NCBI GenBank assembly: GCA_018971195.1
Contig: JAGXBK010000008.1
Span: 1 to 39,857, forward strand
From: Betaproteobacteria bacterium
Lineage (GTDB): Bacteria > Pseudomonadota > Gammaproteobacteria > Burkholderiales > Casimicrobiaceae
Length of the DNA: 39,857 bases
Direction of reading: 5' to 3'
Below, piece by piece: positions 11,901 through 31,474 of this stretch; position 1 is the stretch's first letter; every line of letters begins with the position of its first letter. The notes under the pieces were generated by a model. It was given only the letters and a program-made list of their open reading frames with translations, made no database searches and was not told the DNA's origin. The position numbers were made by a program, and so were the translations under genes.

Positions 11901-12656
11901 ATGGACCCGGTCCTCAGCGTTCGTCATCTGACCAAGCGCTTCGCGGGGCTCACCGCGCTGTCCGACGTGAGCTTCGATCTCGGCAGGGGCGAGATCCTCG
12001 GCTTGATCGGCCCGAACGGGGCGGGCAAGACGACGCTGGTCAACCTGATCAGCGGCGCGTTCCGGGCGAGCGAAGGCGTCCTGCTGTTCGAGGGTGCGCC
12101 GATCGGAGCGCTGGCCTCGCATCGCCGCGCCAAGCTCGGCATCGGCCGCACGTTCCAGATCATGCGGCCTTTCCCCGGCCTCTCGGTCCTGGACAACGTG
12201 GCGGTCGGCGCACTGTTCGGCACCGGCGGTGGTCACCGGCAGCTCGCGATCGCCCGCGAGCTCGCGCACCAGAAGCTCGCGTTCGTCGGCCTCGCCCATC
12301 GCGCCGACCGTCCCGCGGAGGCGCTGGGCGGTCCCGACCGCAAGCGCCTCGAGCTCGCCAAGGCACTGGCCATGAACCCGCGGCTGCTGCTGCTCGACGA
12401 GGTCATGGCCGGATTGAATCTCGCCGAGCTCGAAGCGGTGTTCACGATCATCCGCAAGGTCCGCGACGAAGGCGTCAGCGTGCTGGTGATCGAGCACGTG
12501 ATGAAGGCGATCCGCAGCCTGTCCGACCGCCTGCTGGTCCTGCACCACGGCGAGAAGATCGCCGAAGGCGAGCCGCAGCAGGTGCTCTCCGACCCGACGG
12601 TCGTCGAAGCCTACCTGGGCCGCAGGCGCGCGCCGCACGAGGGCGCCGGAACATGA
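11901..12656 (+). CDS. livG: ABC transporter ATP-binding protein, LivG family
   Basis: Cytoplasmic ATPase of the transporter, 251 aa. Walker A is GPNGAGKT near residue 37. RTFQIMRPFPGLSVLDNV is the usual LivG Q-loop region, and the Walker B region is LLLLDEVMAGLN. The signature region reads ALGGPDRKRLELAKAL, a changed form of the usual LSGGQ-like LPYGxQR stretch, which may be worth noting. It starts 4 nt after livM and ends in an ATGA overlap with livF. Confidence 0.94.
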   Translation: MDPVLSVRHLTKRFAGLTALSDVSFDLGRGEILGLIGPNGAGKTTLVNLISGAFRASEGVLLFEGAPIGALASHRRAKLGIGRTFQIMRPFPGLSVLDNVAVGALFGTGGGHRQLAIARELAHQKLAFVGLAHRADRPAEALGGPDRKRLELAKALAMNPRLLLLDEVMAGLNLAELEAVFTIIRKVRDEGVSVLVIEHVMKAIRSLSDRLLVLHHGEKIAEGEPQQVLSDPTVVEAYLGRRRAPHEGAGT

Positions 12657-13366
12657 GCGAGCCCCTGCTCGCCGTCCGCGATCTCGGGGCCGGTTATGGC
12701 GAAATGCCGGTGCTGCGCGGCATCGACTTCGAGATCCGCGAGCGCGAGATCGTCGCGCTGGTCGGAAGCAACGCCGCCGGCAAGACGACGCTGCTGCGCG
12801 CGCTGTCGGGCGTCCTGCCGCACACCGGGCAGATCCGGTTCGCGGGCGAGGACGTCGGCGGCCTGCCCTCGGACCGGATCTTCGCGCTGGGTCTGGTCCA
12901 GGTGCCCGAAGGACGCCAGCTGTTCGGCCAGATGACCGTACAGGACAACCTGCTGATGGGGGCGTATCGACGCAGCGGACGCCTCGATCTCGCCCAGGAT
13001 CTCGAGCGCGTCTACACGCTGTTCCCGGTGCTCAAGGAGCGGCGGCGCCAGTTCGCCGGGAGCATGTCGGGCGGCGAGCAGCAGATGTGCGCGATGGCGC
13101 GCGCGCTGGTCGCGAGCCCCAGGCTGCTGATGATCGACGAGATGAGCCTGGGCCTCGCGCCCGCGGTCGTCGACCAGCTCCTCGACGTGCTGGTCGAGAT
13201 CCGCGGCCAGGGCGTGACCGTCCTCCTCGTCGAGCAGGACGTGTTCTCCGCGTTGCGCGTCGCCGACCGCGGCTACGTGCTCGAATCGGGGGCCATCGTG
13301 CGCGAGGGATCTGCCCGGGACCTCGGCGACGACCCCGAAGTGCAGCGCGCCTATCTCGGCGTGTAG
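12653..13366 (+). CDS. livF: ABC transporter ATP-binding protein, LivF family
   Basis: Second cytoplasmic ATPase, 237 aa. Walker A reads GSNAAGKTT, with Ala where most LivF proteins have Gly but with the GxxxxGK pattern intact. The LivF signature is MSGGEQQMCAMARAL and Walker B is LLMIDEMSLGLAP. VPEGRQLFGQMTVQDNL is the typical Q-loop region. It ends the transporter operon. Its last 16 nt overlap the 3' end of the convergent cupin gene, so no room is left for a conventional terminator. Confidence 0.94.
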   Translation: MSEPLLAVRDLGAGYGEMPVLRGIDFEIREREIVALVGSNAAGKTTLLRALSGVLPHTGQIRFAGEDVGGLPSDRIFALGLVQVPEGRQLFGQMTVQDNLLMGAYRRSGRLDLAQDLERVYTLFPVLKERRRQFAGSMSGGEQQMCAMARALVASPRLLMIDEMSLGLAPAVVDQLLDVLVEIRGQGVTVLLVEQDVFSALRVADRGYVLESGAIVREGSARDLGDDPEVQRAYLGV

Positions 13367-20545: not shown

Positions 20546-20559
20546 TTGACCGCCGTCAA
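20546..20559 (-). promoter_or_regulatory. FNR/CRP-type palindrome upstream of the phosphoribosyltransferase gene
   Basis: Perfect TTGAC-CGCC-GTCAA palindrome overlapping the stop codon of the upstream QuiC-like gene. Placing its centre at -41.5 would put transcription start near 20511, giving a leader of about 27 nt with a GGAGG site. The -10 region is poor, unlike the other two sites. Confidence 0.6.
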
Positions 20560-21464
20560 TCTCCGGTCGTATCCGGCGCGCCTCGGCCCGGCCGAAGTCG
20601 TTCCATGTCGGGAACCGGAAGCGCGCGTCGCAGCACCGCTTCCGCGAGCCATTCGGCTGCGCGTCGCGCCCGCGCCGTCACCTTCTCCGGCGGCATTTGC
20701 TGGTAATCGTCATTGTAGACATCGAAGCTGTATCCGCCGCGGTAATCGATCTCGTCGAGCTTGCGCACCACGATGGCAAGATCGTCGCTGTGCGCCCCGT
20801 CCCCCGGAAAGACGCGAAGATGGCTCGCGGTGACGGCCCGCTCCTCGGCTGAGTCGATCTCCTGCCAGACGAAATCGGAGAGCTGTACGAGGAAGATCTG
20901 CTCCGGATCGAGTGCCTCGAGTTCGACGAGCGGCACGCGTGCTGCAATGACGTCGAATGCATCGATTGCGAGTCCCAGGTTATGGCAGTTGGCGCGGAAC
21001 ACGAACTCGCTTGCAGCACAGAAGTCCTTCGCAATCCGGCTGCGCGCAACCCCCTTGTACGCAATGCGTATGCCGAGCGGGACCGCGAGCATGGCAAGCA
21101 TGCGCAGGTCGCGCACGATCGCCTCGTCGTCGGGGTTGGCGTGCCTCGACGTCGACGCTTCGACGATCAGCATGTTCCCGCCAAGATTGAAGCAGACGTC
21201 GAGCATCGATTTCGCGACGTCCACCTTGTACGCGTGCGAGTTCCCGGAGAGCCCTTCGAAGTCGCGCAAGGCCTCGAGACCCGTGACGCAAAGTCCGCTC
21301 TCGCGCACCACGCGCACGCCCGCCGCCGCCCCCTGCGGGTGACCGACCACATCGCCGGCAGCGATCATCACCTGGGCGAAGCCGGCATCGCGGATCGCGG
21401 CAAGCTTGGATTCGAGCGTGCCCGCGAGCGATGCGGTATCCATTCCGATGTCACCGTAGATCAT
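20556..21464 (-). CDS. TIM-barrel protein like the N-terminal half of QuiC (3-dehydroshikimate dehydratase-like)
   Basis: A 302-aa xylose-isomerase-like TIM barrel. By layout (LGLAIDAFD, FLVQLSDF, RVFPGDG) it resembles the 3-dehydroshikimate dehydratase domain of QuiC. In Pseudomonas QuiC the metal is held by E134, D165, Q191 and E239. Here the matching positions read K137 (IAYKGVA, normally AYEALAWG), D168, Q194 and D248 (SFDVYND, normally Glu). Two of four ligands are thus changed, and activity on 3-dehydroshikimate is doubtful. The ATG at 21464 overlaps the stop of the HPPD-like gene (ATGA), so the two halves that are fused in QuiC are separate but coupled. Its 3' end touches the FNR-type box at 20546. 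Confidence 0.72.
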   Translation of the reverse strand: MIYGDIGMDTASLAGTLESKLAAIRDAGFAQVMIAAGDVVGHPQGAAAGVRVVRESGLCVTGLEALRDFEGLSGNSHAYKVDVAKSMLDVCFNLGGNMLIVEASTSRHANPDDEAIVRDLRMLAMLAVPLGIRIAYKGVARSRIAKDFCAASEFVFRANCHNLGLAIDAFDVIAARVPLVELEALDPEQIFLVQLSDFVWQEIDSAEERAVTASHLRVFPGDGAHSDDLAIVVRKLDEIDYRGGYSFDVYNDDYQQMPPEKVTARARRAAEWLAEAVLRRALPVPDMERLRPGRGAPDTTGD

Positions 21465-22360
21465 TGCTTCGCGTCGTGGTAGGCAGGCTCGTCGTGCACC
21501 AGCTCGAACATGACGCCGCCAAGCTGTGGTTTCGTAAGCGCGCCTCGTTCGCTCGACTTGACTTTCTCGGAGACGAGAAACTGGACCCCCCTCGATTCTA
21601 GGGCCGCGACGGTGGCCATGACATCGGGAGTGCCGAGGCCGATGCGCTGCAGATGCTCGTCGCCGAAGGCGTAGCGCGCGTTGTCGACGGGCTCGATCAG
21701 CTGCAGGAAGAACTTGCGGCATGGACTTTGAAGGAGCAATCCCTCGGGCATGATTCCGAAGCGAACGCGGTCGGGAAGCGCGATGAATCCGAAGATCCGC
21801 GAATAGAATTCGACCCAGTCCGCCGTGCGGTCCGAACCGATGTACTGGACGATCCCGAAGAAATGCATGCCGCTGATGGCCGGCGGATGCGGATCGACGC
21901 TGGGAATCGGCCGAAAGTCGATGTCGTAGATCGAGAAGTCGTCATAGCGATCGACGAAATAGATGAGACTCTCGCCGGCACCGTGGATGGCGGGGATATT
22001 GAGCTCCATTGCGTGGGCTCGCACAGGGATGTCCCACGCGCCGAGCTGGAGCGCCCGGTGAAAGGCGGCTTCCGCATCACGCACGCGTAGCGCAAACGCG
22101 CTCAGGATGGGGTGTTCGGAAGGCTGAACCGTTCTCGGCACATCGATCGACTGCGAATTGACGACGATGTTCATCGAGCCCTGCCGCCAAAGCTCCACTT
22201 CGCGCGAGCGGTGTCGTGCAACCGGGCGGAACCCCATTGTCTCGAGCACGGCCCCCAGGGCCTGCGGCTTCGAGGTCGCGAATTCGATGAATTCGATGCC
22301 ATCGATGCCGAGAGGGTTCAGAGGTTCGGAGACAGCCTCGCGGCCGAGAACGTTGGTCAT
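21461..22360 (-). CDS. HPPD/VOC-like protein, like the C-terminal half of QuiC
   Basis: A 299-aa protein with two vicinal-oxygen-chelate modules, similar to 4-hydroxyphenylpyruvate dioxygenase and to the C-terminal domain of QuiC. HPPD binds iron through His, His and Glu. H166 (SGMHFFGI) and E286 (VMFELVHD) can be aligned, but the second His position reads Arg (HLQRIGLGT, R239, normally QHIAL). H236 lies three residues earlier and may or may not substitute. The protein may bind metal differently or act as a partner of the TIM-barrel protein. The ATG at 22360 has AGGGG at good spacing; an ATG 6 nt upstream is too close to that site. It follows the IclR gene by 23 nt. Confidence 0.75.
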   Translation of the reverse strand: MTNVLGREAVSEPLNPLGIDGIEFIEFATSKPQALGAVLETMGFRPVARHRSREVELWRQGSMNIVVNSQSIDVPRTVQPSEHPILSAFALRVRDAEAAFHRALQLGAWDIPVRAHAMELNIPAIHGAGESLIYFVDRYDDFSIYDIDFRPIPSVDPHPPAISGMHFFGIVQYIGSDRTADWVEFYSRIFGFIALPDRVRFGIMPEGLLLQSPCRKFFLQLIEPVDNARYAFGDEHLQRIGLGTPDVMATVAALESRGVQFLVSEKVKSSERGALTKPQLGGVMFELVHDEPAYHDAKQ

Positions 22361-22383: not shown

Positions 22384-23271
22384 TCACGGCAGCAGCAATG
22401 CGCCGAGTTCCATTGCAGCTTCGTGCAGCGGTTGAAAATAGCGCTCGGCCATTTCGCTTCGACCCACCAGGCGGCCCTGGAGAATGACATTGATCGCTCC
22501 GACATGGGCTCCGCCGGCGTTCCGGACCGGGACCGCGAGCGTGCACAAGCGCGCCTCCATCTGCTGGCTCGCAAACGCAAAACCGGACTCACGCACGGCC
22601 TCGAGAAGGGCCAGGAGCCTTTCAGGCGAATTCGGGGTGTGCTCGGTATACGGATGGAACCGGGCACGCGCCAGGTACGCATCCAGCTCGTCCGGGGGCA
22701 GCTGCGCGAGCATCACATGTCCGGCAGACGTGCAGTATGCAGGCAGGCGCCGGCCGACATTCAGGGCCGGCGACATGATGCGGGACGATCTGGAGCGCGC
22801 GAGATAGACGATTTCGTCGCCATCGAGAGCGGCGAGCGAGCAGGCCTCGCGCAGCGTTTCGCCGAGGCGGTCGAGGATCGGCTGCGCCAGCACCGCCATC
22901 GAGGACGCCGAAAGATAGGCGTGGCTGAACGACAGCACGCGCGGGCGGAGGAAGAACCGGCGCGCGTCGTCGACGTCGGCGAAGCCAAGCTTGACCAGCG
23001 TGTGCAGGCTTCGCCGCGTGGCGGCACGTGGGATTCCCGTCCGATGGCTTACCTGGGAGATCGATGCGTGGCGGCGCTTGTCGGACAGCGCAAGCAGCAC
23101 GGCGAGGCCGCGCGCGAGCGCCGTCACGAAGTCGGGATCCCCCGAGTAGCGCTCGATCGTGGCGGCAGGCACTGCATCGGGATCGGTGAACGACGGCGCC
23201 ATCCCGTCCGGTGGACGCCTGGCGGGGTCGTCGACACTTTCGTTCCTTGAGGTGGCTGCCCGCGCTGCCAT
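22384..23271 (-). CDS. IclR-family transcriptional regulator (PcaR/PobR-like)
   Basis: A 295-aa IclR regulator. Residues about 45-110 form the winged helix (FVTALARGLAVLLALSD, SISQVSHRTGIPRAATRRSLHTLVKLGF). The effector domain includes GDEIVYLAR, RLPAYCTSAGHVMLA and the C-terminal SEMAERYFQPLHEAAMEL. The GIPRAATRR recognition helix is typical of the PcaR/PcaU/PobR branch, which controls aromatic-acid and quinate breakdown. It lies upstream of the two QuiC-like genes on the same strand and is divergent from the acylating dehydrogenase operon. It is the likely local regulator of both; the palindrome at 23412-23428 is the obvious operator candidate. Confidence 0.9.
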   Translation of the reverse strand: MAARAATSRNESVDDPARRPPDGMAPSFTDPDAVPAATIERYSGDPDFVTALARGLAVLLALSDKRRHASISQVSHRTGIPRAATRRSLHTLVKLGFADVDDARRFFLRPRVLSFSHAYLSASSMAVLAQPILDRLGETLREACSLAALDGDEIVYLARSRSSRIMSPALNVGRRLPAYCTSAGHVMLAQLPPDELDAYLARARFHPYTEHTPNSPERLLALLEAVRESGFAFASQQMEARLCTLAVPVRNAGGAHVGAINVILQGRLVGRSEMAERYFQPLHEAAMELGALLLP

Positions 23272-23671
23272 GCCCGTCCCTTCGCAGCAATCCCGTGGGG
23301 CGGAAGAGCCCCGGTCGGGTGGTGTCCATTGTGCGATACACGCCCGCCGCTACCGCCTGCCGGACAATTTGCCAGAAGCATCATCCGGCCTGCAACGGTT
23401 TTGGCAATTTGTGTGCGCCAGGCGCACAATTCTTGCGGATGGCGATTGTTCGGAGATCGCCTCCGCCCTATCGTCGGGCGATATTGAACCGGTGCGGCAG
23501 AACGGTACGTTCCTCGCGCGTCGGGCGGGAATCCGGGGGGTCGAGCACGGCGATGGCGGTTGCGCCATGGCCTCGCGAATTCGCGGTTTGGCTGCCGGTT
23601 TGGCTGCCGTCTCCCCGCGGCCCCGGCAGCGCCGCGCTGCGGCTCTGTTACGAACACGAAAGGGATTGCCA
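23272..23671. promoter_or_regulatory. 400-nt divergent control region, IclR gene / acylating dehydrogenase operon
   Basis: This is the only gene-free stretch over 300 nt. It is visibly richer in A and T around 23360-23490 than its neighbours. It holds the perfect palindrome TGTGCGCC-A-GGCGCACA (23412-23428), a related partial site TTGTGCGA near 23329, and two similar AATT-centred elements (GACAATTTGCC near 23372 and GGCAATTTGTG near 23403). GATATTGAA near 23480 could hold a -10 box. A 12-nt unit GGTTTGGCTGCC is repeated in tandem at 23585-23608. The + strand reading frame here continues into the dehydrogenase, but its sequence does not look like protein and I do not call it coding. Confidence 0.6.
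23412..23428. promoter_or_regulatory. Palindromic operator candidate (IclR-type)
   Basis: TGTGCGCC-A-GGCGCACA is a perfect inverted repeat with 8-bp arms about a single centre base. Its position between divergent regulator and catabolic operon, and its length, fit an IclR-family binding site. Binding is inferred. Confidence 0.55.
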
Positions 23672-25117
23672 ATGGTTGCCCCTGAAATCAAGAAAGGCAT
23701 CACCGAGGAACAGCAGCAGGAGCTCGATGCGGTGTTCGAGCGCGCGCACAAGGCGCTCGCGATCATTGAAACCTACGATCAGGCGCGCGTCGACCGCCTG
23801 TGCCAGGCGGTTGCATGGGCGGTCGCGAACAAGCAGACGTTCACCCGCCTCGTGGACATGGGCATCGCCGAAAGCGGGCTTGGCGATCCGGTGAGCCGGA
23901 TGGGCAAGCGGATGAAGATCCGCGGGGTATTGCGCGACGCCCTCCGGCAGAAGAGCGTCGGCCTCATCGAGGAGATTCCGGAGAAGGGCATAGCCAAGTA
24001 CGGCAAGCCTGCAGGCATCATCGCCTGCATCGTCCCGACGACCAATCCCGACCTCACCCCGGCCGGCAACGCGATCTATGGAATCAAGGCGCGTGACGTC
24101 GTGATCTTCTCGCCGCACCCGCGCTCCAAGAAGACGTCGTTCGAGACCGTTCGCCTGATGCGCGACGCGCTCGAGCGCGAGGGCGCGCCGGCCGACATCC
24201 TGCAATGCCTGACGAAGGTCAACATTCCAATGTCGCAGGCGCTGATGGCACGCGCCGATCTCATCGTCGCGACCGGCGGCCAGCCGATGGTGCGCGCTGC
24301 CTACAGCTCCGGCACGCCTGCCTACGGCGTGGGCGCGGGCAACTCGACAATGATCATCGACGAGACCGCAGACATCGAGGAGGCCGCGCGCAACACGCGT
24401 CTGTCCAAGACCTCCGATTTCGGCTCGGGGTGCTCCGCCGACGGGAATCTGGTCATCGAGCAGTCGATATTCGACAGGCTGCTCGCGCAGCTCCAGGTCG
24501 AAGGCGGCTATCTCGCGAACGAGCAGGAAAAAGCCGCGCTTCGAAAGGTGATGTGGGACGACGAAGGGCACCGCCTGCCCGATACGGTCGCGATCGCGCC
24601 GCAACAGCTCGCCAGGGCCGCAGGATTCAACGTTCCAGCCAGCTGCAAGTTCATCATCGTCCACGGCGACGGCATAGGCAAGGACCACCCGTACTCGGGC
24701 GAAAAGCTCACGACCCTGCTCGCCGTCTACAAATACAAGGGCTTCGAGCAGGCACTCGAGATGATGCACGCGATCTACGCGGTGGGCGGCAAGGGCCACT
24801 CCTGCGGAATCTACTCGTTCGATCAGGACCATATCCGCCGGCTCGCGCTTGCCGCACCGGTCTCGAGGATCATGGTCCGCCAGCCGCAATCGAAAGCAAA
24901 TGCGGGCGCGTTCAACAACGGAATGCCGATGACGTCGAGCCTGGGCTGCGGCACCTGGGGCGGCAACATCGTCTCCGAGAACGTGCACCTGAAGCACTAC
25001 ATGAACACGACATGGGTGTCGGTGCCGATCAAGGAGGACAAGCCCTCCGACGAGGAGCTGTTCGGCTCGTTCTACGATCCGGCGCTCGAAGCCGAGATCG
25101 AGACGATTACGACATGA
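23672..25117 (+). CDS. CoA-acylating aldehyde dehydrogenase (SauS/EutE/PduP-like)
   Basis: Soluble NAD(P)-dependent dehydrogenase that should turn an aldehyde into its acyl-CoA. It is 481 aa. The catalytic cysteine is C254 in DFGSGCSADGN. VPTTNPDLTPAGNAIYG (121-137) and ATGGQPMVRAAYSSGTPA (200-217) are typical of the acylating branch. Overall it recalls the acylating sulfoacetaldehyde dehydrogenase SauS, but the substrate cannot be read from the sequence, and no sulfonate genes are nearby. The ATG at 23672 follows AAAGGGA by 7 nt. It is first of the + strand operon running to about 30557 and is followed by the citrate-synthase-like gene after a 48-nt gap. Confidence 0.85.
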   Translation: MVAPEIKKGITEEQQQELDAVFERAHKALAIIETYDQARVDRLCQAVAWAVANKQTFTRLVDMGIAESGLGDPVSRMGKRMKIRGVLRDALRQKSVGLIEEIPEKGIAKYGKPAGIIACIVPTTNPDLTPAGNAIYGIKARDVVIFSPHPRSKKTSFETVRLMRDALEREGAPADILQCLTKVNIPMSQALMARADLIVATGGQPMVRAAYSSGTPAYGVGAGNSTMIIDETADIEEAARNTRLSKTSDFGSGCSADGNLVIEQSIFDRLLAQLQVEGGYLANEQEKAALRKVMWDDEGHRLPDTVAIAPQQLARAAGFNVPASCKFIIVHGDGIGKDHPYSGEKLTTLLAVYKYKGFEQALEMMHAIYAVGGKGHSCGIYSFDQDHIRRLALAAPVSRIMVRQPQSKANAGAFNNGMPMTSSLGCGTWGGNIVSENVHLKHYMNTTWVSVPIKEDKPSDEELFGSFYDPALEAEIETITT

Positions 25118-25165
25118 ATACCGGCAAGGGGTGCATCGCGACGGTCTCTCACTGCGAACGGGAAC

Positions 25166-26029
25166 ATGACGACCAAACGGCCTGAGGAGCTTCTCGCCGA
25201 TGCGTCCGCGTGGTGGGATACCGCCATCATCGACGTTCATCCGGGGGAGATCGCGATCCGGGGCTATCCGATCGAGGACTTGATCGGGCGCACGCGGTTC
25301 ACGGAAATGATCTGGCTGATGCTGCGCGGCGAGCTGCCATCGACGGCACAGGCCGATCTGCTCGAGGCTGCGCTCGTCCCGGGGGTCGACCACGGTCCGC
25401 ACGCGCCATCGATCGCAATCGCGCGCATGGCGGTCACCTGCGGCCTGCCGGTCAACGGCGCAATGGCGTCCGCGATCAATGTTCTCGACGACATTCACGG
25501 CGGCGCAGGCCAGCAGTGCATGGAGCTGTACCGCGAGATCGACGCGGAGGCGGGTCCGCACGGCAACCTCGCGCAGGCCGCGACCCGGGTAATCGAACGT
25601 CGCCACGAGGCCGGCGAGAAGATCGTTCCGGGGTTTGGTCACCGTTTCCACCCGGTGGATCCGCGCACCGCGCCACTGTTCGAACTGGTCGCAAGGGCCG
25701 AAGCGGCCGGGACGGTGTCGGGGCGCTACGCGCGGATCGGGCGCGCGGTCGAGCAGGCGCTCGAAGCGCTGAAGAATCGCCTTATCCCGATGAACATCGA
25801 CGGCATTACCGCGGTGATCTTCTGCGAGCTGGGCTTCGAGCCGGAGCTGGGGCGCGGGCTCTTCATCCTCTCGCGCGCCGTGGGCATTCTCGCCCACGCG
25901 TGGGAACAGAAGCAGCGCGGCCGCCGCATCATGGGGCCGATGCCCCGCGAGATTCCATATCGCTACAGCGGACCGGCGCGTCGCGCCGTTCCTCCGACCT
26001 TCGGCGCGAAACGGCGCGCCAGTGACTGA
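25166..26029 (+). CDS. Short citrate synthase/citryl-CoA lyase-like protein
   Basis: A 287-aa citrate-synthase-superfamily protein, much shorter than true citrate synthase (about 430 aa). The catalytic triad can be aligned: H111 (DDIHGGAG), H159 (PGFGHRFHPVDPR) and D212 (MNIDGITA), matching H274, H320 and D375 of the pig enzyme. RRIMGP near the C-terminus may supply the substrate-binding Arg. Short members are usually annotated citryl-CoA lyase and could cleave or form a 3-hydroxyacyl-CoA. Beside an acylating aldehyde dehydrogenase, it may condense or split the acyl-CoA made by that enzyme. The exact reaction is unknown. The start at 25166 has CGGGAA upstream. Confidence 0.78.
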   Translation: MTTKRPEELLADASAWWDTAIIDVHPGEIAIRGYPIEDLIGRTRFTEMIWLMLRGELPSTAQADLLEAALVPGVDHGPHAPSIAIARMAVTCGLPVNGAMASAINVLDDIHGGAGQQCMELYREIDAEAGPHGNLAQAATRVIERRHEAGEKIVPGFGHRFHPVDPRTAPLFELVARAEAAGTVSGRYARIGRAVEQALEALKNRLIPMNIDGITAVIFCELGFEPELGRGLFILSRAVGILAHAWEQKQRGRRIMGPMPREIPYRYSGPARRAVPPTFGAKRRASD

Positions 26030-26082
26030 GCCAGGGTGTTCGCCGGGATTCCGCCGCGGACACGGGCCCCAAGGAGCCATGC

Positions 26083-27864
26083 ATGAAGGATCTGATCTCG
26101 AACCAGCTCGTCAGGTATCTCGAAGCGCGTGGCATCGAGCACGTCTTCGGCCTCTGCGGGCACACCAACATCGCGGTGCTGGCGGCGCTTTCGAAGAGCA
26201 GGAAGATCAAGTTCATCAACACCCGGCACGAGCAGATTGCCGCGCACGCAGCCGACGGCTATGCACGCGCCAGGAAGGAGACCGCGGTGGTGCTGTCGCA
26301 CCTCGGACCGGGCCTCACGAACGCCGCGACGGGTGTTGCCAACGCCGCACTCGACTCGGTGCCGATGGTCGTCATCGCCGGCGACGTTCCCAGCCATTAC
26401 TTCGGCAAGCACCCCCACCAGGAGGTGAACATGCACGCGGACGGCGCGCAGTACGAGATCTACCGGCCGTTCGTCAAGCGAGCCTGGCGCGTGGATTCCC
26501 CGCATCTGTTTCCCGAGATCATCGAAAAGGCGTTCGCTCTCGCCGAAAGCGGGCGCCCCGGCCCGGTGCTGGTCGATGTTCCGATGGACATCTTCTCCAG
26601 CGAAGTCGAGGTCAGGCTCTTTGATCGACTGCGGCTCAACACGAAGAAATTGGCCAGGCCCTCGCTCGACGAGGACACCGCCACCGAGATCGTCAAGAGG
26701 CTCGCTGCGGCCGGGAAGCCCGTCCTCTACGTTGGTGGCGGCATCATGCTCGCCGACGCGACCGCGGAGTTGCGCGAGTTCGTCGACCATCTGCAGATTC
26801 CCGTGGCGCACACCATCATGGGCAAGGGGGCGCTGCCGGACGACCATCCCCTCATGCTCGGGATGACCGGCTTCTGGGGCACCCAATTCATCAACGAGCA
26901 GTGCCGCGGCGCGGACTGGATCCTCGGCCTGGGCACGCGCTTTTCCGAAGCGGACTGCAGCTCCTGGGAGCCTGAATTCACCTTCAGCTTCCCGCCGACG
27001 AAGCTGATTCATATCGACATCGACCCGGCGGAGATCGGCCGCAACTATCCGGTGGAGATCGGTGCGGTCGCGGACATCAGGCAAGCGCTGAAGGTCCTGA
27101 ATCGGGTCGCCCGCAAGCTCGTGCCCGCGGGCGTCAAGCGCCCGGCACTGGCGGAGCGGATCGCGACGGCGCGCACGGCATTCATTGCCGGAAACCGCGT
27201 TCATGCAACCAGCGATGCGTATCCGATGCGTCCCGAGCGGATCCTCGCCGATGTGCGCGAAGCGCTTCCACGAGACGCACTCATCACGACCGACGTTGGC
27301 TGGAACAAGAACGGCGTCGGCCAGCAGTTCCCGATCCTCGAGCCGGGCACGATCTTCACGCCGGGCGGTTACGCGACGATGGGCTTCGGTGCGCCGGCGG
27401 CACTGGGGGCCAAGATTGCGCGCCCGGACCGCGTCGTCGTCGCACTGGTCGGCGACGGCGGCTTCGGCCAGAACCCGGCAATGCTCGCAACCGCGGCCGA
27501 GCAGAACGTCGCCGTCGTGTGGGTGATCATGAACAACGGCGCGTACGGCACGATCGCGGGCCTGGAAAAGGCGCACTACGACACGACTTTCGGAACCGTC
27601 TTCGAAAGGGATGGCAAGCCGTACTCTGTGGACTACGCTGCAATCGCGAAAGCGTACGGCATCGACGGCGTGAAGATCGGCGCGGCCGCCGAGTTCAAGC
27701 CGGCGCTCGCGAAGGCGATCAAGGCGGCAAAGCCGTTCGTCATCGACGTCATGATGCAGAACGAGCCGGTACCGACGGCGGGCCACTGGAACATCATGGA
27801 CATCTACTCGCCGGGCAAGAAGGTGCACCACGTCAGTGTCGGGGCCACTGCCCACGCCGATTGA
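26083..27864 (+). CDS. Thiamine-diphosphate-dependent enzyme (acetolactate-synthase-like)
   Basis: A 593-aa ThDP enzyme of the acetolactate synthase/benzoylformate decarboxylase superfamily. Its three domains are: an N-terminal Pyr domain with the catalytic glutamate E50 (NTRHEQIAAHAADGYAR), a central domain, and a C-terminal PP domain with the ThDP/Mg motif GDGGF (457-461) ending in NN (484-485). E50 rules out a glyoxylate carboligase, which has Val there. No second small subunit gene is present, so a true biosynthetic acetolactate synthase is unlikely. Possible roles are a 2-oxo-acid decarboxylase, a lyase, or a ring-opening hydrolase like IolD. The ATG at 26083 has AAGGAG 6 nt upstream. 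Confidence 0.82.
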   Translation: MKDLISNQLVRYLEARGIEHVFGLCGHTNIAVLAALSKSRKIKFINTRHEQIAAHAADGYARARKETAVVLSHLGPGLTNAATGVANAALDSVPMVVIAGDVPSHYFGKHPHQEVNMHADGAQYEIYRPFVKRAWRVDSPHLFPEIIEKAFALAESGRPGPVLVDVPMDIFSSEVEVRLFDRLRLNTKKLARPSLDEDTATEIVKRLAAAGKPVLYVGGGIMLADATAELREFVDHLQIPVAHTIMGKGALPDDHPLMLGMTGFWGTQFINEQCRGADWILGLGTRFSEADCSSWEPEFTFSFPPTKLIHIDIDPAEIGRNYPVEIGAVADIRQALKVLNRVARKLVPAGVKRPALAERIATARTAFIAGNRVHATSDAYPMRPERILADVREALPRDALITTDVGWNKNGVGQQFPILEPGTIFTPGGYATMGFGAPAALGAKIARPDRVVVALVGDGGFGQNPAMLATAAEQNVAVVWVIMNNGAYGTIAGLEKAHYDTTFGTVFERDGKPYSVDYAAIAKAYGIDGVKIGAAAEFKPALAKAIKAAKPFVIDVMMQNEPVPTAGHWNIMDIYSPGKKVHHVSVGATAHAD

Positions 27865-27904
27865 TCGAGCGTCTATCGCAAGCCGGATGGGAGAGGCGAC
27901 CACC

Positions 27905-28777
27905 ATGAAGCATGAATATTCGCTGGCGCACCTGACGGTGCTCTCGCTGACGCCGCCGCAACTGGTCGACGTCGCCGCGCGAACGGGATACGACTACGTG
28001 GGTGTGCGGATAACGCGCGTTACACCGAACGAAGTCCTGTATGACCTTGCACGGGATCGCGCGATGATGAAGGAGACGAAGGCGAGGCTCGACGACACCG
28101 GGATCGGTGTGCACGACGTCGAGCTCTTCCGCATGGATCCATCGCTCGATGCCGAGAGTTTCCTGCCGCAACTCGAGGCGACCGCGGAGCTAGGCTCGCG
28201 CAACATCATTGCCCAGTTGCCGGATCCCGATCGCGGGCGCGCTACCGAGCGCTTCGCCCGGATCTGCGATCTCGCGAGGCCGCTCGGAATATTCGTGAGC
28301 CTGGAGTTTCCGCATTGGACCGAAACCGGTAACCTTCGCGAGGCGGCCCGCGTTGTGCGCGCGGTCAATCGGTCGAACGCAGGGATTCTCGTCGACATGC
28401 TCCATTTCGGCCGTTCCGACTCGAGTCTCGACGAGCTTGCCAGGCTCCCGCGCGAGTGGTTTCGCTTCGCGCACGTCTGCGACGCTGCGAAGGAGGTGCC
28501 CCCGACGATGGCCGGCATCATCCGAACGGCGCGCGACGAGCGACAGTTTCCGGGCGAGGGCGGGATCGAAGTGTGCGAGATTCTGGCACGGCTGCCCCAG
28601 GACATCCCGTATGCGCTCGAGATTCCGAGGAATGCGCTGACGCGGGCCGTCGGCGCGGAGGAAGTCGCCCGCCTTGCTCTTGTCGCCGCAAAAAGTTATC
28701 TCGACGGGCCCGGCGTCCGTAGCGCCAGCGCGAGCGTCGCAAGACCCGGGACGCCTGCCGCGGTGCCCGGACGGTAG
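27905..28777 (+). CDS. Sugar-phosphate isomerase/epimerase-type TIM-barrel protein
   Basis: A 290-aa xylose-isomerase-like TIM barrel. The family's four metal ligands can be placed at E134 (SLEFPHW), D164 (ILVDMLHF), H190 (FRFAHVCD) and E239 (YALEIPRN). This metal site is thus intact, unlike that of the QuiC-like barrel at 20556. Relatives include hydroxypyruvate isomerase, IolE-type keto-inositol dehydratase and 3-dehydroshikimate dehydratases. I cannot decide between them. The ATG at 27905 has GGGAGAGG upstream; the longer in-frame start at 27836 lies inside the ThDP gene. The last 20 or so residues are Ala/Pro-rich and probably disordered. Confidence 0.8.
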   Translation: MKHEYSLAHLTVLSLTPPQLVDVAARTGYDYVGVRITRVTPNEVLYDLARDRAMMKETKARLDDTGIGVHDVELFRMDPSLDAESFLPQLEATAELGSRNIIAQLPDPDRGRATERFARICDLARPLGIFVSLEFPHWTETGNLREAARVVRAVNRSNAGILVDMLHFGRSDSSLDELARLPREWFRFAHVCDAAKEVPPTMAGIIRTARDERQFPGEGGIEVCEILARLPQDIPYALEIPRNALTRAVGAEEVARLALVAAKSYLDGPGVRSASASVARPGTPAAVPGR

Positions 28778-28833
28778 CGCAAAGGAGGCGTAGCCGCGGC
28801 ATTCCGATCATCGAAGAAGCAACGGAATCCCTT

Positions 28834-29613
28834 ATGAAGTCATCCAAGGTCGTCGATATTCGCGGGCGTGTGCTCGGCGGCGAGACACCGCTCATTTGCA
28901 CGCCGCTCGTCGGCAGGACGCGCGAGCGCGTCCTTGCCGAAGCTGCGGCTGTCGTCGCGAAGAAGCCCGAGGTCATCGAATGGCGGGTCGACTACTTCGA
29001 ATCGATCGGCGATGCGAAGGTCGTGCTCGAAACGGCGCGGCTGTTGCGCGCCGTCGTCGGCGACATGCCGATCATTTTCACGCGCCGGTCGATCAAGGAG
29101 GGCGGCGAGCCGATTGCCCTCGACGACGAAGGCGTAGTTCGGCTCTACGCCGAGGTGAGTGCAAGCGGTCTCGTCGACTTTCTGGATTTCGAGATGGGAA
29201 ACGACGCCGAACATCTGCGGCGCGTTCGCGAGAACGCGCGCGAGCGCGGGACGCGGCTCATCCTCTCGTACCACAACTTCGGCTATACACCCGGACGGGA
29301 ATTCCTCGAGCAGCGGTTTCTCGACGCCGAGCGCCTGGGCGCAGATGTCGCCAAGGTCGCCGTGATGCCTCGCGTCCGGATGGACGTGCTGACTCTTCTC
29401 GTTGCGACGGCGCAAGCCGAAGCCAAGGCGCGCATCCCGCTCATCAGCATGTCGATGGGGCCGCTGGGATCCGTGACCCGCATGATCGGTGGCGTTTTCG
29501 GCTCGTCGCTGAGCTTCGCGGTCGGTGAATCCAGTTCAGCGCCAGGACAGATACCGATTGCCGATCTGCATGCGGTCTACGCCGTGATTCGCCGTGCGCG
29601 TGGAATGACCTGA
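28834..29613 (+). CDS. aroD: Type I 3-dehydroquinate dehydratase
   Basis: Class I Schiff-base dehydroquinase, 259 aa, converting 3-dehydroquinate to 3-dehydroshikimate. All the hallmark residues are present: E49 (VIEWRVDYFE), H147 (LSYHNF), the Schiff-base lysine K174 (AKVAVMP), R216 (VTRMIGG) and the SAPGQI loop (235-240). In many betaproteobacteria biosynthesis uses the unrelated type II enzyme (AroQ) and type I copies sit in catabolic clusters; here the context is clearly catabolic. The ATG at 28834 lacks a close Shine-Dalgarno site. An AAAGGAGG sequence lies about 46 nt upstream without a start codon at proper spacing. Confidence 0.93.
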   Translation: MKSSKVVDIRGRVLGGETPLICTPLVGRTRERVLAEAAAVVAKKPEVIEWRVDYFESIGDAKVVLETARLLRAVVGDMPIIFTRRSIKEGGEPIALDDEGVVRLYAEVSASGLVDFLDFEMGNDAEHLRRVRENARERGTRLILSYHNFGYTPGREFLEQRFLDAERLGADVAKVAVMPRVRMDVLTLLVATAQAEAKARIPLISMSMGPLGSVTRMIGGVFGSSLSFAVGESSSAPGQIPIADLHAVYAVIRRARGMT

Positions 29614-29669
29614 GGTCGCGCGTTCCGGATCGCGCGCTGCAGCTTGAACCGGAACGAACTGGAGGCCGC

Positions 29670-30557
29670 ATGAATGACACGACGCAGACTGACTTGCCGC
29701 TACCACTGCAACGGTACCTCGAGGCCTGGAACAGCCACGACGGCCCCGGCATCGCGTCGACCTTCGCCCCCGGCGGCTTCTACTCGGATCCTGCATCATC
29801 CGGGCGGCTGACCGGCGCTGCGATCGCACGCCATGCGGAAGCTCTGTGGCAGTCGTTCCCTGACCTTCATTTTTCCGTCGACGGACCGGTCGTCGCAGAC
29901 ACGAAGACAGCCTACATGCCGTGGAAAATGAATGGCACCAACACGGGCTCGTTCCATGGGTTGCCGCCAACCGGCAAGACAGTGGCGCTCGCAGGCGTGG
30001 ACCTCGTTCGACTGTCTTTCGAAGGAATCGAGTCTGTGACCGGCTTCTTCGACTCCCGCGAGCTGCCTGCACAGCTCGGCTTGCAAGTGATCGTGCAACC
30101 CCACATGATCGGCCCGTTTTCACTTGGAACCAGTACGCGCGTGGTCTCCGGGCGCGGTGGGAGCCCCGGAGCATTCACGGTGACGTCCCTCGAGGGTCGC
30201 ACGCCGGCGGAAACCGAGGAAATCGGCAAGCTTGGCCGCGAAACACTCATGGAAATGATTGGAATGGACGGCTTCATCGCGGCCACCGTCGTGACTTGTG
30301 GCAACCGGCAGATGACTTTCTCGGCCTGGGAGCGCCAGGATGATGTTGCGCGGATGCGAAACTCGGAAAGTCACGCTGACGCAGTCGGGCGCTTCTATGG
30401 CAAGGACCTGGCGCGGGGCGGCGTCATAGGCTCCTTTGAAACGACACATGTCATGGCGATGGAGCGTTGCAGAAAATGCGGAAAGATGGTGAACATCGAG
30501 CGCAGCAACGGCCGCTGCAGCTGTGGCCAGGAAGTTGCGCCGGCAAGTTACTGGTGA
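29670..30557 (+). CDS. SnoaL-like protein with a C-terminal zinc ribbon, function unknown
   Basis: A 295-aa protein of three parts. Residues about 8-130 look like a SnoaL/NTF2-like fold (YLEAWNSHDGPGIASTFAPGGFYSDP, FPDLHFSVDG, GLPPTGKTV). Residues about 165-260 may be a ferredoxin-like (ABM-type) domain. The C-terminus carries CRKCG and CSCG, a compact four-cysteine zinc ribbon. SnoaL folds can bind small molecules or act as cyclases or isomerases. I know no described family with this combination. It is the last gene on the + strand of the catabolic block, 56 nt after aroD, with GGAGG 5 nt before the ATG. Confidence 0.7.
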   Translation: MNDTTQTDLPLPLQRYLEAWNSHDGPGIASTFAPGGFYSDPASSGRLTGAAIARHAEALWQSFPDLHFSVDGPVVADTKTAYMPWKMNGTNTGSFHGLPPTGKTVALAGVDLVRLSFEGIESVTGFFDSRELPAQLGLQVIVQPHMIGPFSLGTSTRVVSGRGGSPGAFTVTSLEGRTPAETEEIGKLGRETLMEMIGMDGFIAATVVTCGNRQMTFSAWERQDDVARMRNSESHADAVGRFYGKDLARGGVIGSFETTHVMAMERCRKCGKMVNIERSNGRCSCGQEVAPASYW

Positions 30558-30579: not shown

Positions 30580-31395
30580 TCAGCGGCCGCGCGCTGCGGC
30601 CGCGAGCAGATAATCGACCATCAGCGCAGACACCCCTTCGAACATGCCGGCCCCCATCTGCGTACCGCAGCCGATGCGGCGTGCCGCGTCGATCAGCGGT
30701 GTCACCGCCGGTCGGGTGATGATGTCCGCGACAAACATCGCCCGCTCGAGCCTCGCGGCCTCCACCGGGAACGGATCGCCCGCGCGCATCCCCGCGGGGG
30801 TGGCGTTGACGATCAGCGTGAAGCCCGCGGGATCGGCCGAGCCTGCGGCGACCTTCCCGGGATAGCGATCACCGAGCCGCCGAAGCAGCGCATCGCGGCG
30901 TGCGGCGTCGCCGTCGTGGATCGCGAGTAGCGCAACGCCAGCCTCGAGCAGCGCAAGCCCGATGGCCGAGCCTGCGCCGCCCGCACCCGCCAGCAGCGCC
31001 CGCTGCCCTTCGGGGCGGCAGCCGGCAGCACGCAGGCCGGCGACGAATCCTTCTCCGTCGAGCTGGTCGCCATGCCAGCTTCCGTCCGGATTGCGGCGCA
31101 ACGTGTTGACCGCCCCGAGGAAGTGCGCGCGCACCGTCGCCGTCGCGCATTGCCGGTAGACCGCGAACTTGTGCGGCACGGTGACGATGATGCCGTCGAA
31201 GTTCTTCGCGAGGCTCACGCCGCGGATGAACGCGTCGACGTCCGCGGGTGCGACGTGGATCGGCACGACGACGGCGTTGCGGCCTCTCGCATTGAGGGCG
31301 CGCGTGACGCCGGCGGGCGATGCCACCTGCGCGATCGGATCCCCGATGATCGCGATGACGCGCGTTTCGCCATTCAGTTTCGAGTAGTCGTTCAT
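30580..31395 (-). CDS. Shikimate/quinate dehydrogenase-like protein (AroE family)
   Basis: A 271-aa NAD(P)-dependent AroE-family dehydrogenase. The catalytic pair K76 (TVPHKF) and D113 (LDGEGF), and N97 (GAVNT), match K65, D102 and N86 of E. coli AroE, and the nucleotide loop is GAGGAGSAI. Of the two serines that grip the shikimate carboxylate (HSKSP), only the second is kept: the motif reads QVASP, with Val24 for the first. It is therefore likely a paralogue acting on quinate or a related compound rather than the biosynthetic enzyme. The ATG at 31395 was chosen over a TTG one codon earlier. It converges on the SnoaL gene with a 22-nt gap. Confidence 0.85.
   Translation of the reverse strand: MNDYSKLNGETRVIAIIGDPIAQVASPAGVTRALNARGRNAVVVPIHVAPADVDAFIRGVSLAKNFDGIIVTVPHKFAVYRQCATATVRAHFLGAVNTLRRNPDGSWHGDQLDGEGFVAGLRAAGCRPEGQRALLAGAGGAGSAIGLALLEAGVALLAIHDGDAARRDALLRRLGDRYPGKVAAGSADPAGFTLIVNATPAGMRAGDPFPVEAARLERAMFVADIITRPAVTPLIDAARRIGCGTQMGAGMFEGVSALMVDYLLAAAARGR
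30583..30603. terminator. Hairpin at the junction of convergent genes
   Basis: GCGGCCGC-GCGCT-GCGGCCGC forms an 8-bp stem with a 5-nt loop, within the last codons of the AroE-like gene and just after the SnoaL gene. No T-run follows on either strand, so termination is only possible. Confidence 0.3.
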
Positions 31396-31474
31396 CAATG
31401 CAGGTCGTTGGTCGAGGGCATCTGCGCGCGGATCGGCCCGCGCTTCGACGGCGTGCTGCCCGCCTGCCGGGCGC

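Follow-up and report, generated by a model that had tools for sequence, protein, structure and literature searches.

We report here a row of six genes which probably encodes a non-aromatising, oxygen-independent route for the degradation of quinate and shikimate. The genes lie at positions 23672-30557 of a stretch of 39,857 nucleotides from a Betaproteobacteria bacterium (contig JAGXBK010000008.1 of assembly GCA_018971195.1), hereafter the window, which is contig C4 of a host genome of 3.17 Mb in 288 contigs with a completeness of 97.89%. Quinate and shikimate are abundant plant acids, and the established bacterial route for them consists of QuiC and the beta-ketoadipate pathway, in which protocatechuate is made and O2 is needed to open the ring. 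Regarding the wider picture, we incline, with somewhat less assurance, to the view that the genes represent an undescribed and widespread O2-independent quinate/shikimate route through a 3,4-dione and homocitryl-CoA, with interchangeable, unrelated enzymes at four of its steps. No description of such a route was found in the literature searched, which comprised open-licence papers only and is thus weak evidence of absence.

The comparative case for the route, as far as sequences can make it, is strong, and it includes four slots that are filled by unrelated families at different loci: a type I or type II dehydroquinase; a TIM barrel or a cupin; an acylating aldehyde dehydrogenase (ALDH), or an ordinary ALDH with a CoA-transferase; and a citryl-CoA-lyase-like (CCL-like) or an HMG-CoA-lyase-like (HMGL-like) protein. 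These alternatives suggest that dehydroquinate is dehydrated, that its ring is then opened to give an aldehyde, and that an acyl-CoA made from the latter undergoes retro-Claisen cleavage.

Gene cluster and proposed route

The six open reading frames (ORFs) are all on the + strand with intergenic gaps of 40-56 bases and run divergently from an IclR gene (22384-23271, - strand), just as the preliminary description of this DNA had stated, and profile searches bear out the families it had named, namely acylating dehydrogenase, citrate-synthase-like protein, thiamine diphosphate (ThDP) enzyme, TIM barrel, type I dehydroquinase and SnoaL protein. For the first and fourth ORFs the ATG was taken from that description or from relatives; the longest ORFs begin at 23159 and 27836. 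The genes, together with a convergent one downstream, are as follows.

23672..25117, +: acylating (CoA-forming) aldehyde dehydrogenase, SauS-like (NCBIfam SauS model, 469 bits)
25166..26029, +: CCL-like protein of the citrate-synthase family (NF004864; alignment with 6hxp)
26083..27864, +: ThDP enzyme (three TPP domains; His27; tree)
27905..28777, +: TIM barrel, metal-dependent xylose-isomerase-like type (AP_endonuc_2; predicted model; conserved metal-site residues)
28834..29613, +: type I 3-dehydroquinate dehydratase AroD (TIGR01093, over cut-off)
29670..30557, +: SnoaL-domain protein with a cysteine-rich C-terminal tail (PF07366)
30580..31398, -: AroE-like dehydrogenase, downstream of and convergent with the six genes (PF08501)

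In the proposed route, an AroE-like or alcohol dehydrogenase would convert quinate to 3-dehydroquinate or shikimate to 3-dehydroshikimate (step 1), and the dehydroquinase would interconvert 3-dehydroshikimate and 3-dehydroquinate (step 2). The latter carries two beta-hydroxyls: loss of the one at C1 is the AroD reaction, and loss of the one at C5 would give a 3,4-dione analogous to the product of IolE. The TIM barrel would strip the C5 hydroxyl to yield 1-hydroxy-3,4-dioxocyclohexane-1-carboxylate (step 3), which, since the C1 hydroxyl is retained, would not be aromatic. The ThDP enzyme, which we propose as the ring-opening hydrolase of this cyclohexane-1,2-dione carboxylate, would add at C3 and hydrolyse the C3-C4 bond, like cyclohexane-1,2-dione hydrolase (CDH) and IolD on their diones, to give homocitrate semialdehyde, OHC-CH2-C(OH)(COOH)-CH2CH2-COOH (step 4); were the addition at C4 instead, homocitryl-CoA would be reachable only via the variant with ALDH and CoA-transferase. 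The acylating dehydrogenase would then form homocitryl-CoA directly, the ALDH and CoA-transferase variant passing through homocitrate (step 5), and the lyase would cleave homocitryl-CoA in a retro-Claisen reaction to acetyl-CoA and 2-oxoglutarate (step 6). The carbon would balance (7 = 2 + 5) and O2 would not be needed. Substrate and order, which the preliminary description had left open, are thus given a concrete proposal, in which we infer from the genes the substrate, each of the reactions and their order, as well as the regiochemistry of steps 3 and 4.

Distribution of the loci

Peptide patterns of the ThDP family were scanned over one genome per species for 84,980 species, which gave at least 597 stretches, at least 577 of them encoding a relative at E <= 1e-3; the loci retained are the best 80 of these relatives, 70-86% identical. 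Judged by record titles, the kept loci come from Beta-, Gamma-, Alpha- and Deltaproteobacteria, Bacilli, Clostridia, one member of Phycisphaerales and one Gemmatimonadetes bin, and among the carriers are Formimonas, Anaerospora and Anaerobacillus, genera of anaerobes. Carriers that exist as cultivated environmental strains include Aromatoleum diolicum 22Lin, Brevibacillus panacihumi and Anaerobacillus arseniciselenatis. Relatives in the plasmid collection occur in Azoarcus KH32C (73%) and in Streptomyces and Nonomuraea (53%). Within the order of the host, the family (E <= 1e-130) was detected in 3 of 300 genomes, its own counted.

Three plasmid-collection records and two larger stretches bring the other loci to 85, and the ORFs of the window and these loci were clustered and then classed by profile and tblastn, the ThDP frame of locus L071 being missing from the clustering and the names of the alternative families being checked on one representative each. 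Most counts below refer to the long loci, defined as those of 19.7 kb or more, of which there are 58 with the window. Whole-genome scans for intradiol dioxygenase, LigB, CCL and QuiC covered 50 genomes, the host's own plus the genomes behind 49 of the other 85 loci; the genome of L016 is outside these scans and outside the HMGL search.

The core genes are conserved far beyond the host genome, in distant phyla, although the composition of the set varies. Among the long loci, 48 have a dehydroquinase or AroE-type gene and 40 a CCL-like or HMGL-like gene. The preliminary description had named a lack of joint conservation in other genomes as an outcome that would speak against it; the core genes do recur together.

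Alternative enzymes at the four steps

AroD scores 195.4 bits with TIGR01093, over the cut-off of 139.3. Type I (AroD) or type II (AroQ) enzymes, which are unrelated dehydroquinases, are present in 36 of the 58 long loci, the type II representative also scoring over its cut-off, and the two types avoid each other (Fisher p 0.04; this and the other Fisher tests ignore kinship). The possibility that AroD is an additional catabolic copy was not upheld, AroD being the sole dehydroquinase detected in the host draft genome. The AroE-like gene, one of three in that genome, satisfies the Pfam N-domain (PF08501, 58.6 bits over a cut-off of 27) and stays under the cut-offs of all 17 NCBIfam models that it matches (TIGR00507, 129.4 versus 200.2); the AroE representative from other loci is over one cut-off. 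Eight of the ten long loci which have no AroD, AroQ or AroE gene hold an alcohol-dehydrogenase or shikimate-kinase-like gene. Shikimate-kinase-like genes occur in 14 long loci altogether and recur in Bacillota (e.g. L097:5281-5838).

For the dehydration step, a TIM barrel of either of two types is found in 46 long loci. The type in the + strand row is no more than 700 bases away from the ThDP gene in 35 or more of its 62 listed copies. The predicted model of the window's + strand barrel, built from an alignment of 40 sequences (pLDDT 94, pTM 0.89), retrieves with Foldseek first IolI, Lmo2234 and the TIM/HPPD fusion 5hmq, which we take to be QuiC; sugar epimerases follow, and AsbF is at rank 43. 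A sequence-profile search of the PDB likewise finds IolI, 5hmq and AsbF amid sugar epimerases. In an alignment of 40 barrels, E134, D164 and E239 are present in all 40, and position 190 is His in 30 and Gln in 10; these Glu, Asp, His-or-Gln and Glu positions are presumably the metal ligands of IolI/QuiC-type barrels. The fold is alike that of QuiC, and the score with the QuiC model NF042435, which describes a two-domain protein, is 20 bits against a cut-off of 1200. In 18 of the 86 loci this barrel coexists with a QuiC-like TIM, so the two probably differ in function. A small cupin stands next to the ThDP gene in 6 of the 86 loci, namely L036 (11812-12222), L043, L058, L067, L089 and L096, and the TIM barrel is absent from all six (Fisher p 3e-4 over 86 loci); possibly the cupin is an unrelated replacement dehydratase.

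Regarding CoA activation, the dehydrogenase of the window scores 469.3 bits with the SauS model NF047625, under the cut-off of 600. Acylating ALDH occurs in 31 long loci, ordinary ALDH in 22 and CoA-transferase in 22; among the loci having no acylating ALDH, 17 carry both ALDH and CoA-transferase, 4 ALDH alone, 3 CoA-transferase alone and 3 none of them, so that activation is complete in 48 of 58. Acylating ALDH and CoA-transferase avoid each other, with both in only 2 loci (Fisher p 8e-8), and ordinary ALDH goes with CoA-transferase (Fisher p 8e-8). The CoA-transferase representative belongs to the formyl-CoA-transferase group, and the ALDH representative is of the succinate-semialdehyde type, under cut-offs.

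The lyase of the window scores 425.5 bits with the citryl-CoA lyase model NF004864, over the cut-off of 261, and its nearest solved relative is the citryl-CoA lyase 6hxp (E 3.8e-35), with which it has in common HGGA, GxGHR and NxDG, which we take to be the citrate-synthase catalytic motifs. CCL-like genes are found in 22 long loci and HMGL-like ones in 19, with both in 1 and neither in 18, and again the two avoid each other (Fisher p 4e-4). The HMGL-like representative (cluster c6) reaches 326 bits with the HMG-CoA lyase model, over 246, and also matches homocitrate synthase models, under cut-off. Five Rhodoferax genomes with no lyase at the locus carry an HMGL-like gene that shares 81-84% identity with the one in the cluster of L031; in one of them, G301, it is on the contig of the ThDP gene, and a stop codon lies inside three of the five alignments. 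CCL relatives were found in 19 of the 50 genomes, and 17 of these have theirs at the ThDP locus, as an intact gene in 16 and as a fragment in one. In Noviherbaspirillum denitrificans (L053) the CCL-like match is split between two distant places in the genome, of which one is the ThDP locus. Plasmids of Methylobacterium, Azospirillum and Roseibium (L011, L012, L013) carry a CCL-like gene with or near a CoA-transferase and have no annotated close ThDP-family neighbour, which indicates that the lyase family serves other acids too.

When the alternatives are placed on the ThDP tree, the fewest switches needed are 7 for activation, 8 for the lyase, 4 for TIM/cupin and 10 for AroD/AroQ.

The ThDP enzyme

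The ThDP enzyme scores 424.5 bits with the acetolactate synthase model TIGR00118, under its cut-off of 538.35, and no IolD model is among the matches listed for it, which are 25 of the 56 matching NCBIfam models. In a plain sequence search BbmA and acetolactate synthases, rather than CDH, are its nearest relatives of solved structure. The tree combines 25 of the 86 family members with 19 other sequences; of 15 paralogues, 9 were extracted, 3 of those (wrong frame or truncated) were excluded, and six more are absent, the glyoxylate-carboligase-like one of L107 included. The family, which spans Proteobacteria, Bacilli and Clostridia, forms a single clade with support of 100/100. One weak branch sets the family, CDH, IolD and enzymes of Shinella and Aminobacter on one side, and acetolactate synthase (ALS), glyoxylate carboligase (GCL), AlsS, POX, AruI, OXC and the paralogues on the other. 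In topology tests, grouping the family with ALS and nothing else was rejected (p-AU 0.013), and grouping it with ALS and GCL together was not (p-AU 0.106); a firm place among acetolactate synthases, which would have counted against the preliminary description, was thus not obtained.

His27 is present in 86/86 family sequences and aligns with His28 of CDH and with the histidine of IolD; its equivalent is present in CDH (1 sequence), IolD (2) and the Shinella/Aminobacter enzymes (3), and absent from the references for ALS (2), AlsS, GCL, POX, AruI and OXC (one or two sequences each). His73 is likewise in 86/86 and by eye may match H76 of CDH, yet MAFFT puts a gap there. The H28A/N484A variant of CDH, in which H28 is one of the two residues replaced, is reported to couple pyruvate with ketones (PMC12247030).

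Related GH-type ThDP genes are found with a TIM barrel and a Gfo/Idh dehydrogenase in Aminobacter sp. MSH1 pUSP3 (L014:4493-11728) and in Shinella (L121), the Aminobacter locus having an ALDH and a cupin in addition; these loci perhaps represent another ring-opening pathway.

Neighbouring genes

The features adjoining the row on its upstream side are the following.

23272..23671, no strand: divergent intergenic region of 400 bases, presumed to hold promoters and operator (position between the divergent starts)
22384..23271, -: IclR regulator near the PcaR/PcaU/PobR type (TIGR02431, 264.4 bits, under the cut-off of 284.75)
21461..22360, -: HPPD-N/VOC protein, like part of the C-terminal half of QuiC (PF14696, 151.6 bits)
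20556..21464, -: TIM barrel with a resemblance to QuiC's N-terminal half and Lys at the position of the conserved Glu (111.7 bits with the QuiC model, whose cut-off is 1200)

The start of the HPPD-N/VOC gene was set by comparison with relatives, the family search having run from 22345, and such a gene occurs in 15 loci, window included. The QuiC-like TIM of the window (20556-21464, - strand) has Lys in place of the conserved Glu, and Asp in place of both the His that follows the Asp motif and the last Glu. At the first of these sites Lys is also found in L019, L026, L059 and L066, Val in L017/L029 and Arg in L076 and L085, and Glu is retained in ten of the 21 QuiC-like TIM copies. The window copy may have a different activity. 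Its pairing with the VOC protein as a split working QuiC was not upheld, in view of the altered active-site residues and of a separate near-full-length QuiC in the genome.

The SnoaL/zinc-ribbon gene, which the preliminary description counted in the set, has 0 homologues at E <= 1e-5 in the 85 other loci; it was rejected as a core step and is probably outside the core route. About 10 kb upstream of the row, at 11901-13363 (+), is a pair of ABC ATPase genes, one of which is of the branched-chain-amino-acid type, with relatives (cluster c30) near the ThDP gene in six other mapped loci. The protein of cluster c22 (L036:4945-6297), about 450 residues long and hydrophobic-looking, occurs in 15 loci, 11 of them long; the copy tested has no Pfam or NCBIfam match, and a new transporter is possible.

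Alternative explanations

Several observations weigh against the quinate/shikimate route as proposed. Since AroD is the only dehydroquinase detected in the host genome, it may here be biosynthetic. Ten of the 58 long loci have no AroD, AroQ or AroE gene, 8 neither TIM type nor a cupin, 10 no complete CoA activation and 18 no lyase of either type; in the no-lyase genomes searched other than Rhodoferax, the HMGL relatives are 39-58% identical and may serve other pathways. The placement of the ThDP family beside CDH and IolD has weak support (78/91) and long branches. The sample holds repeats (L017/L029 are one genome, L044/L046 one species and L048/L051 one strain), the mutual exclusion of alternative enzymes is partly inherited, and independent-pair sign tests, run with few pairs for activation and lyase only and with L017 left out, are not significant (median p 1 and 0.125, respectively). 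The logic set out in the preliminary description, in which oxidation and dehydration of a cyclic polyol acid lead to ring opening by the ThDP enzyme and then to an acyl-CoA that the citrate-synthase-like protein splits, agrees with the comparative data at the level of genes, its reactions being conjectural.

The alternative that survives best, which we consider unlikely, keeps the same ring opening and applies it to a different quinate-related carbocycle, e.g. a deoxy or epimeric cyclitol acid, the acyl-CoA then being a relative of homocitryl-CoA. It would suit the ten long loci that have no AroD, AroQ or AroE gene, the AroE-like gene of the window with its scores under the AroE cut-offs, and the QuiC-like TIM (with its altered active site) and VOC genes adjoining the cluster. 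The recurrence of two unrelated dehydroquinases in 36 of 58 loci, however, is difficult to account for if neither dehydroquinate nor dehydroshikimate lies on the path.

It is improbable that the ThDP enzyme instead decarboxylates 4-carboxy-4-hydroxy-2-oxoadipate, formed in protocatechuate 4,5-cleavage, to citrate semialdehyde, which the acylating dehydrogenase and then a genuine citryl-CoA lyase would turn into acetyl-CoA and oxaloacetate. This chemistry balances, the lyase is over the citryl-CoA lyase cut-off, the regulator is PcaR-like, and 41 of the 50 genomes have a LigB-family match, which reaches at least 200 bits in 15, the host's own among them. However, 9 genomes have no such match and 26 only matches under 200 bits, the TIM barrel, cupin, dehydroquinases and AroE are left with no role, and His27 is common to ring hydrolases; on the LigB-family counts we reject it as a general reading.

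In favour of the O2-independent route, 8 of the 50 genomes are without both the LigB family and an intradiol dioxygenase. The aromatic-route scan took QuiC, single-domain dehydratases of other families being outside it, and found a near-full-length match (at least 590 bits, none over 1200) in 6 of the 50 genomes and not in the other 44, of which G342 has pieces. In the host, such a QuiC stands on contig C12 with genes read as pcaIJFHGBDC, so the host can probably run both routes. These genes, and the QuiC-like ones adjoining the cluster, would fit an accessory of the classical aromatising route, in which dehydroquinase, AroE and TIM barrel feed protocatechuate and the ThDP enzyme, dehydrogenase and lyase are unrelated, but that explanation is the least probable of all, given the rarity of QuiC, an intradiol dioxygenase in only 16 of 50 genomes (absent in 34), the closeness of TIM barrel and ThDP genes, and the loci where the TIM barrel stands alongside a QuiC-like TIM.

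The quinate/shikimate route through homocitryl-CoA would, if true, have several consequences. Anaerobes have long been known from older physiology to ferment hydroaromatic acids, and direct opening of the saturated ring would explain how they could use quinate and shikimate. Homocitryl-CoA would join the catabolic intermediates, and a function would be given to genes now recorded as thiamine pyrophosphate-binding protein, citryl-CoA lyase and sugar phosphate isomerase/epimerase.

Comparison with known systems

As proposed, the route is a variant of the ring opening seen with inositol and CDH, and it ends with a retro-Claisen cleavage of the citrate type. In myo-inositol catabolism the dehydratase IolE is followed by the ThDP hydrolase IolD, and later by isomerase, kinase and aldolase steps. 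Here too a TIM barrel would dehydrate a hydroxyketone ring to a 1,2-dione, and a ThDP enzyme with the GH histidine would open it; the difference is that an acyl-CoA and a retro-Claisen lyase would replace isomerase, kinase and aldolase, and that dehydroquinase and AroE-type genes are present. With CDH the enzyme would share the ThDP-dependent hydrolysis of a cyclohexane-1,2-dione, and it has His28 in common; identity is 29%, however, and in the alignment CDH lacks the family residues H112, H118, W407, N408 and K409. The 22Lin genome encodes both CDH (L110, identified by its match to 2pgn) and a member of this ThDP family (L062).

The classical degradation of quinate and shikimate has the same inputs, a dehydroquinase, an AroE-type dehydrogenase and a PcaR-like IclR regulator, whereas the route proposed here would involve no aromatic intermediate, no O2 and no loss of CO2, and its end products would be acetyl-CoA and 2-oxoglutarate, the classical route giving succinyl-CoA in place of the latter. 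Finally, the superfamily of HMG-CoA lyase and homocitrate synthase, like citryl-CoA lyase, cleaves a tertiary hydroxyacyl-CoA to acetyl-CoA or carries out the reverse, and what would set the present lyases apart is the degradative direction on homocitryl-CoA.

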